A model generated the notes under the pieces. It worked only from the letters and a program-made list of their open reading frames with translations. It made no database searches and was not told where the DNA came from. A DNA stretch of 64,000 bases from Chamaesiphon sp. 341R_metabat_111 (lineage in GTDB: Bacteria > Cyanobacteriota > Cyanobacteriia > Cyanobacteriales > Chamaesiphonaceae), in contig JANXVE010000121.1 of NCBI GenBank assembly GCA_025351825.1, forward strand, positions 1-64,000. The letters are read 5' to 3'. The translations under genes were made by a program, and so were the position numbers. Below are positions 14,052 to 16,580 of this stretch, piece after piece; the first letter of the stretch is position 1, and each line of letters opens with the position of its first letter.

Positions 14052-14945
14052 ATGAAAGCAGCAAAATTAGTTTTATTCCGTAACTGGCAATACACCTTGC
14101 TTGGTGGTATTGTCTTGACGATCGTACTGTGGTCGGCAATCAAAGTACCTGGGATGGCCTTGGGTGCCAGATTTGCACCTGCAAGTCCCCGCCTGGGAGA
14201 AACGCTGGTAGTCAATATTACTGCTACTCCAGGCAAAACTGCCTCGCCAACAATTAAGGTTGGTGGTAAAACTTATCCAGCATTTAAAGTCGGTGTCGAT
14301 CGATTTCGGGCAATGATTCCCACCACTCCACTCGAACAACCAGGCGATCGAAACCTAACTATCTCCAGCAATCCCGATACAACTACACTGAAAATACCTG
14401 TAGCCGATCGCAAATTTCAGACTCAACGCATCACTTTGTCTGGTGGCAAAGCAGGCATCGAAGCAACAGAAATGGAGCTTAAACAGGTAGCCGCTTTCAA
14501 AGCTACTGTCAGTCCTGAAAAACTTTGGGAAGGTAATTTCATCGCCCCAAATGACGGTAGAACCAGCTCTCCATTCGGCGTGCGCCGCTACTACAATGGC
14601 GAATTAGCAATGGACTATTACCATCGAGGCTTAGATTATGCGGGTGGCTATGGCTCGGCAGTCGTCGCTCCAGCAGCGGGTAGAGTAGTATTAGTCGGCT
14701 ATGAGAAAAAAGGCTTCCGTGTGCATGGCAATGTGGTGGGACTCGATCACGGGCAAGGCGTAGTCAGTATCTTTATGCACATGAGCAAAATCAACGTCGA
14801 AGAAGGCGAAATGCTCGAACCAGGCGATCGAATTGGCTCCATCGGCACCACCGGAGCCTCTACAGGGCCTCACCTTCACTGGGGCTTATATGTCAACGCC
14901 GTTTCAGTCGATCCCGTTCAATGGAGATCGAATTCGATCGATTAG
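14052..14945 (+). CDS. M23 family metallopeptidase (LytM domain)
   Basis: 297 residues. A membrane segment at about 15-32 anchors or exports it. A beta-rich region spans about 40-140, then the LytM domain has its zinc ligands H191, D195 (HRGLD) and H276, with H274 as the catalytic histidine of the HxH pair (GPHLHW). All active-site residues are present, so it is probably an active endopeptidase cutting peptide bridges in peptidoglycan, rather than an EnvC-like degenerate activator. The gene is alone. Confidence 0.93.
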   Translation: MKAAKLVLFRNWQYTLLGGIVLTIVLWSAIKVPGMALGARFAPASPRLGETLVVNITATPGKTASPTIKVGGKTYPAFKVGVDRFRAMIPTTPLEQPGDRNLTISSNPDTTTLKIPVADRKFQTQRITLSGGKAGIEATEMELKQVAAFKATVSPEKLWEGNFIAPNDGRTSSPFGVRRYYNGELAMDYYHRGLDYAGGYGSAVVAPAAGRVVLVGYEKKGFRVHGNVVGLDHGQGVVSIFMHMSKINVEEGEMLEPGDRIGSIGTTGASTGPHLHWGLYVNAVSVDPVQWRSNSID

Positions 14946-15080
14946 TGGTTTGGTGGTTTAGTGGCTTAGTGGTTTAGTTGCTAGCAATAACACTCCGTCT
15001 CCCCACACCTCCCACACCTCCCACACTCCCCGCTCCCAACGCCCCGCTCCCAACTCCCAACTCCCAACTCCCAAGCAAAT
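14946..15080. repeat. Tandem GTGGTTTA and CTCCCAA repeats
   Basis: GTGGTTTAGTGG-type units (14946-14980) are followed by CTCCCACAC and tandem AACTCCC heptamers to 15075. It fills the spacer downstream of the M23 peptidase gene. Confidence 0.7.
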
Positions 15081-15185
15081 GTTACTAACTCCAATCCCAA
15101 GGGCATAATAAATACAAATAGTGGCTTAACTAACGAGAGTGTTAGCACTTTAGCTATTTCAGGATTATTATTACCAGTTTTCATA

Positions 15186-15749
15186 ATGATGAATATACAA
15201 GCGATCGTAGAACATGCTTTGGACGAGGGCTATCTCACGCCTGCGATGGAAGCAGAAGTAGGGCGAATTTGTGATAGCGCGGCGGAGCTGTCTGTAGAAG
15301 AGTATATGGCACTCGATCATTTGATGGGTGCATTACTCGCTGGGGAAATCGTCACGGTTCCACGCAAACAATTTATCAATGTGATGGAAGAACTGGTAAT
15401 CAGTGAAACTATCGGTCAAATTACCGCAATTGAAGTTGACTCAGATATCCAATTAGATGTCGGTGATGTGGCTGCTTACGCGCTAAATCGTCTACCACCT
15501 CTGTATGCAACCACCGAAGAAGGTGCCAGCTACCAAAGAGATCGCGCTCAGAAAGAACTCCAAGATTTGATTGCCAAACAGGTTAAATCGGCAATCTCCC
15601 AAAACATGGATCGTCCCGAATTCTTCCCCGAACGTCAAGCTCTCACCAAGCCTGGTGGCGAAGAAGTTGTCAAGCAAGTTAGTACTCTTCTTCAAGCTTA
15701 CGCACCCCAATTTGAAGCCAAAAATCACCCTGTGGGAGCTATCGATTAG
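15186..15749 (+). CDS. ComFB domain protein (likely cyclic dinucleotide receptor, CdgR-like)
   Basis: 187 residues. The ComFB core is clear in ELVISETIG and DVAAYALNRLPPLYATTEEG, followed by a lysine-rich helix. In cyanobacteria ComFB proteins with this long N-terminus (LTPAMEAEVGRICD...) have been reported to bind c-di-GMP or c-di-AMP and affect cell size and competence; I recall CdgR of Anabaena as such a case. Binding here is inference from family likeness. Start at ATG 15186 or 15189. It is 18 bases before the fusion gene at 15768 and may be co-transcribed. Confidence 0.85.
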   Translation: MMNIQAIVEHALDEGYLTPAMEAEVGRICDSAAELSVEEYMALDHLMGALLAGEIVTVPRKQFINVMEELVISETIGQITAIEVDSDIQLDVGDVAAYALNRLPPLYATTEEGASYQRDRAQKELQDLIAKQVKSAISQNMDRPEFFPERQALTKPGGEEVVKQVSTLLQAYAPQFEAKNHPVGAID

Positions 15750-15767: not shown

Positions 15768-16580
15768 ATGAAATGTCCTAATTGTCAGTCTACCAAGCTG
15801 CGGAAGCATGGATTTTATCGTGGGAAACAACGGTATCAATGTAAAGATTGCGCCCGTCAATTTGTGGAAACCCACGATCCAAATCTCCATCAACAAACTA
15901 GTACTGGAGTGGAGGACAGGATCGATCGATACATCACCTCGATCTCTACTCCTGCTAGTAATTTGCTGGTCAATTTGCAGCAAGCTACAGCGCAGTATCC
16001 ACTCGCCCAAATGCAGCCGACTTTACCACAGGCGCAACTGATCGCGCTTTTGATGAGATCGATTGGAGCTAGTCGCGTATTAGAGCTGGGGATTTTCAAT
16101 AGCTATTCTACGTTAGCAATAGCTTTGGCATTGCCAGCTTCAGGAACAGTTATTAGCTGTGGAGTAGCGGGAAAACATCTCGATATCGCTCGCGCACATT
16201 GGCATCAAGCTGGAGTCGGAGCTAGAATCGATATGCAAATTGACAGTGGATTGGATCTACTCGATTCTCTTACAGAGACGCTACGCGAACGATTATTACT
16301 TAACTATCCGATCGAGTATTTTGATTTAATTATCATCTCTGGACTCAAGCATCAATATTTACTCTACTATCAACGCGCGATCGAGTTATTACGCCCTCAG
16401 GGATTACTCATTACCACCGATGTTTTGTGGCAAGGCAAGGTTCTCAATTCTGATACTTACAACGATGATTTTACACGCGGCATCGATCTTTTCAACCGCG
16501 AACTAGCCGCAGATCCACGAGTAAATGTTTCAGTGTTGCCGATCGGTGATGGAATCTCGATCGCCACTAAAATTGGTTAA
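15768..16580 (+). CDS. IS1-type zinc ribbon fused to class I O-methyltransferase (family 3)
   Basis: 270 residues from ATG 15768. Residues 1-32 are a zinc ribbon with C3, C6, C25 and C28 (CPNC and CKDC around GKQRYQC), the same as in InsA of IS1-like transposases. From about 85 to the end the protein is an O-methyltransferase of the catechol/caffeoyl-CoA type: motif I near ASRVLELGIFNSYS and a motif near FDLIIISG. The methyltransferase part appears intact. The two domains are joined in one open frame with no stop between. The substrate is unknown; the zinc ribbon could give DNA or protein binding. Confidence 0.82.
   Translation: MKCPNCQSTKLRKHGFYRGKQRYQCKDCARQFVETHDPNLHQQTSTGVEDRIDRYITSISTPASNLLVNLQQATAQYPLAQMQPTLPQAQLIALLMRSIGASRVLELGIFNSYSTLAIALALPASGTVISCGVAGKHLDIARAHWHQAGVGARIDMQIDSGLDLLDSLTETLRERLLLNYPIEYFDLIIISGLKHQYLLYYQRAIELLRPQGLLITTDVLWQGKVLNSDTYNDDFTRGIDLFNRELAADPRVNVSVLPIGDGISIATKIG

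Follow-up and report, generated by a model that had tools for sequence, protein, structure and literature searches.

A conserved zinc ribbon-O-methyltransferase fusion, probably non-catalytic, encoded behind comFB in Chamaesiphon

The window, a 64,000-nucleotide stretch of a Chamaesiphon contig, carries on its plus strand a gene (15768..16580) in which a transposase-type zinc ribbon precedes an O-methyltransferase (OMT) fold. The questions raised by this locus are whether the two parts truly form one protein and whether that protein is still a methyltransferase. An earlier note on this DNA suggested that a transposase module may have been joined to a methyltransferase, giving it a new substrate or target. 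The joining is borne out, in that the gene encodes a conserved ribbon-OMT fusion that is under selection. The proposed enzyme activity is not, since the metal ligands and the acid that holds the ribose of S-adenosylmethionine (SAM) are replaced in every copy.

The frame is uninterrupted, as the earlier note had stated; it runs from ATG to TAA and comprises 270 codons plus the stop. Residues 1-35 (15768..15872, plus strand) form a Cys4 zinc ribbon whose ligands are C3 (15774), C6 (15783), C25 (15840) and C28 (15849). Residues 3-35 match the NCBIfam model NF050000 of IS1/IS1595 zinc ribbons (51.3 bits, cut-off 28, E 1.2e-13), with which they share a GKQRYxCxxCxRQF core. The ribbon had been called an InsA zinc-binding domain; because the Pfam InsA model PF03811 scores under its own cut-off (19.8 versus 26.1), "IS1/IS1595-type" is the more exact label. 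The transpos_IS1 profile is matched only at positions 1-43 of 199, and the score of 42.6 bits falls well under its cut-off (100). Unlike in IS1 and IS1595 transposases, neither a helix-turn-helix (HTH) nor a transposase catalytic core was found behind the ribbon in profile tests, and the protein is not classed as an IS1 transposase.

The ribbon is followed by a linker (residues 36-48, 15873..15911), the least conserved stretch of the protein, and then by the OMT fold (residues 49-270, 15912..16577), both on the plus strand. The fold is full length: residues 59-269 match positions 3-204 of 204 of PF01596 (E 4.7e-46). In this sense the description of a complete family-3 O-methyltransferase holds for the fold, but not for its catalytic residues. 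The same full domain and fold are found in the cation-dependent OMTs of PF01596, such as the Synechocystis enzyme (3CBG), Myxococcus SafC (5LHM/5LOG) and Rv0187; by sequence, the fusion protein matches 3CBG with E 3e-42 and SafC with E 1.5e-41. Structure prediction, which had been recommended in the earlier note, yielded both parts. The AlphaFold2 model (mean pLDDT 90, pTM 0.78) contains a three-stranded ribbon (11-17, 20-25, 31-35) and a confident OMT fold, whereas residues 40-45 are floppy (pLDDT <50), and the linker is probably flexible. The best solved structures found with Foldseek were SafC (5log, E 3.6e-24) and the Synechocystis OMT (3cbg, E 5.7e-22). The copy in the window has eight added residues in its OMT part (167-174, 16266-16289) that are absent from the seven orthologues.

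The fusion gene is present in eight of nine Chamaesiphon genomes, in seven of them whole and in the eighth cut by a contig end. Every whole copy has the ribbon, with all four cysteines kept (7/7). In the ninth assembly (G003), a gene for an M23 peptidase, which elsewhere lies near the fusion gene, ends 155 nucleotides from a contig end, so that the assembly breaks at the locus; the fusion locus is therefore probably unassembled there, and we treat this genome as missing data rather than as a true absence. Outside Chamaesiphon, no fusion gene was found in the 382 other genomes among 391 searched from the order, so that one genus of the 150 covered has it. A search for the same domain pair in other cyanobacteria, as had been proposed, thus finds it among Chamaesiphon congeners and in none of these 382. 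Among 390 genomes sampled from the class, only ribbonless OMTs with 38-43% identity were found outside the window's own genome. A match on a Streptomyces plasmid extends over residues 3-268 but lacks the ribbon, and in the viral contigs searched only an OMT fragment matched. The pairing of ribbon and OMT may be new, having been unseen in the other genomes of a limited sample and with the literature covered in part.

The residues that PF01596 enzymes use for catalysis are missing from the fused proteins. In Rv0187, a divalent metal that the reaction requires is held by Asp139, Asp165 and Asn166, and the SAM ribose by Glu92 (PMC6543040). When these positions were mapped through common motifs (D-x-D-K and D-N) rather than by direct alignment to the Rv0187 structure, all 58 ribbonless cyanobacterial OMTs had D, D, N and D in the metal-triad and ribose columns, whereas the eight fused copies all had S/Y/A, T, D and G there. 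In the window, S191-G192-L193 (16338..16346) replaces the metal ligand D and the second D of a D-A-D-K motif whose lysine (K194) is kept, T217-D218 (16416..16421) replaces the ligands D-N, and G132 (16161..16163) replaces the ribose-binding Asp. The last two changes are uniform, with T-D and G in 8/8 fused proteins against D-N and D in 58/58 ribbonless ones. Forty columns are invariant among the 58 ribbonless OMTs; every fused copy departs from them at the same eight, five of which belong to a six-residue catalytic set (hypergeometric P 5e-4). In addition, 20 clade-specific residue switches are fixed in the fused copies, many around the pocket (130-138, 160-164, 188-196, 217-218). Judged from these columns, catalysis is lost in a focused way, with the fold retained and the pocket rebuilt. 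The metal-dependent OMT chemistry has very probably been lost, and the enzyme is almost certainly dead. Within PF01596, human COMTD1 (2AVD) is similar in that two of its three metal ligands are missing (VLRVLW replaces the D-N motif); unlike the fusion protein, it retains the first Asp and has no ribbon. No paper describing inactive methyltransferases that serve as regulators in bacteria turned up in a literature search with the terms chosen.

Chamaesiphon genomes also keep a separate, intact, ribbonless OMT. In a phylogenetic tree, these intact proteins group with the sister genus as a clade of their own (100/99), and the fused proteins are monophyletic (99/99) on a stem branch of length 2.64. 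The fused clade carries a long-branch warning, and removal of the outgroup yielded no close relative. On this tree, the Chamaesiphon paralogue is no more than a possible parent of the fused OMT. Relative to other PF01596 OMTs, then, the fusion protein lacks the metal triad and ribose acid, has an N-terminal zinc ribbon, and belongs to a long-branched clade of its own.

Ribbons of the same type occur on several host proteins. The best matches to the fusion ribbon are on NYN-like, acidic, TetR-ribbon and ribbon-HTH proteins (64-67% identity), whereas ribbons on recognizable IS1 elements are 44-58% identical and those of Chamaesiphon's own IS1 elements 44%, in a comparison of 34 columns, which are too few to settle descent. 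An origin from a local IS1 element is not supported by these values, and recruitment from the existing pool of host ribbons is no less likely than capture from an IS1 element. One such host protein is encoded in the same genome (L002:817-1755, contig C65); it is a 312-amino-acid TetR-family protein with a ribbon of this type and an HTH at its C terminus. Similar proteins are encoded by both genera of its family and by further cyanobacteria (L067, L072, L077, L078, L081, L082, L101, L105, L111, L112). The TetR-ribbon proteins, exemplified by L002, L067, L082 and L111, differ from the fusion in having the ribbon at the C terminus of a TetR-family protein; in Chamaesiphon an HTH follows it. Two proteins of 425-441 amino acids (L100, L108) have an N-terminal ribbon followed by an NYN-like domain, with PF01936 just under its cut-off in L100, and a 434-amino-acid acidic, repeat-rich protein (L107) has a ribbon at its end. 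Genome G006 contains six near-identical short ORFs (L069, L070 and four other places) with an IS1-type ribbon and an HTH; the frame of L070 closes at ~126 amino acids, which resembles IS1-like elements whose transposase gene is split. More than once, it seems, cyanobacteria have added this transposase-type ribbon to host proteins that are unrelated to one another, namely TetR, NYN-like and OMT proteins.

The genomic context of the fusion gene points to a second-messenger pathway. Directly upstream, and on the same strand, is comFB (15186..15749, plus strand; PF10719, E 5.9e-20), whose stop codon lies 18 nucleotides before the fusion ATG in the window. The same adjacency is seen in seven of seven genomes, six of which have a gap of 17-18 nucleotides. 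In the remaining genome (G007, L050), comFB has an early TGA stop and the gap to the fusion ATG is 50 nucleotides. The M23 peptidase gene (14052..14945, plus strand; PF01551, E 3.5e-27) precedes comFB as conserved context, and no functional claim is made for it. Between the two genes (14946-15185) are short C-rich tandem-like repeats that differ between congeners; no convincing palindromic site was found upstream of comFB, a region too variable and repeat-rich for such a search. Downstream of the fusion gene, four genomes (G002, G005, G006, G007) have a gene that we take to be carotene desaturase-like from the appearance of its N terminus, recognized by sequence with no family search. Three other arrangements occur in the rest (G000; G001 and G008; G004). 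Because the downstream neighbours vary while the comFB side holds, the latter is the stable side. The conserved adjacency, short fixed spacing and shared strand suggest that comFB and the fusion gene are probable operon partners. The sister genus, in two genomes, also has the M23 gene next to comFB, but the gene that follows is unrelated and on the opposite strand. There, comFB evidently does not need the fusion gene, which weighs against the reading proposed below.

ComFB binds c-di-AMP and c-di-GMP (PMC12313861), and CdgR, a ComFB relative in Anabaena, exerts part of its effect by way of the transcription factor DevH (PMC13075795). Given these activities and the position of comFB, we propose that the fusion protein has a role in the ComFB pathway. 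We regard it as a probable regulator and not as an enzyme, since its active site is lost and its gene lies directly behind that of a second-messenger receptor. The two genes would be transcribed together and would serve the same second-messenger pathway, much as CdgR acts through DevH. What the proposal takes from the Anabaena system is the scheme of a ComFB-family receptor that works by way of a DNA-binding protein; DevH, however, is a CRP-family factor, and the putative partner in Chamaesiphon combines a ribbon with an OMT fold. The OMT fold could provide a dimeric body, as in its relatives. This body may retain binding of SAM, S-adenosylhomocysteine (SAH) or another small ligand, and through its two ribbons it would contact nucleic acid or a partner protein. 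The chances are about even that the gene encodes a genus-specific, non-catalytic regulator in the ComFB pathway, and a regulatory or nucleic-acid-binding role, taken by itself, seems equally balanced. A functional tie to ComFB is plausible but slightly less probable. In the most elaborate version of this proposal, which we consider rather unlikely as a whole, the former SAM pocket would sense a metabolite (possibly SAM or SAH), the two ribbons of the dimer would read nucleic acid, and ComFB would couple this to c-di-AMP or c-di-GMP; the two genes would then make up a new kind of second-messenger switch, confined to a single cyanobacterial genus.

Protein or RNA can also be bound by zinc ribbons, which often mediate protein contacts. 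The fusion could thus be a ligand-binding or scaffolding protein whose ribbon merely stabilizes the fold or binds a protein partner, without contacting nucleic acid. The lack of an HTH behind the ribbon, unlike in the Chamaesiphon TetR-ribbon proteins, speaks for this possibility and counts against a nucleic-acid-binding regulator. However, the ribbon belongs to the transposase type, and selection holds it more tightly than the body of the protein: between congeners, pN/pS is 0.06 in the ribbon, 0.26 in the OMT part and 0.34 in the linker. This lowest value marks the ribbon as a kept, functional part of the protein. A ligand-binding or scaffolding protein of this kind is rather unlikely.

A methyltransferase with altered, metal-independent chemistry, guided by its ribbon to nucleic acid or protein, is the reading closest to that of the earlier note. 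The fold is complete and confidently predicted, and the fused copies largely keep Lys194 together with the Gly, Tyr and Ser of the SAM loop (G108, Y113 and mostly S114), so that the protein could conceivably bind SAM or carry out an unusual reaction without metal. Yet all eight copies have lost the three metal ligands and the ribose acid, and relatives have an absolute need for the metal (PMC6543040), which makes an active enzyme improbable.

The loss of catalytic residues and the long stem branch would also be expected of a decaying OMT duplicate on its way to becoming a pseudogene. We reject this reading as very improbable, because purifying selection acts throughout the genus and most strongly on the ribbon, the frame is open in every copy, new residues have been fixed, and the changes common to all copies are confined to a fifth of the invariant OMT columns and are clustered in the active site. 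An assembly or start-codon error joining two genes has next to no probability even though most of the genomes are draft assemblies from metagenomes, as the junction is common to seven independent assemblies (one of them consisting of three contigs), the ribbon lies in the same frame in all seven and not in a separate one, an outcome that the earlier note had named as refuting, and the conserved ATG stands 17-18 nucleotides past the comFB stop in six.

With a non-catalytic regulator as the preferred reading, the fusion protein is a candidate downstream partner of ComFB, a widespread receptor whose outputs are partly known. The locus also offers a clean natural case in which an enzyme fold loses its catalytic residues and gains a zinc-binding domain, while an active paralogue is kept for comparison. 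The apparently repeated attachment of such ribbons to cyanobacterial proteins would merit a systematic survey.
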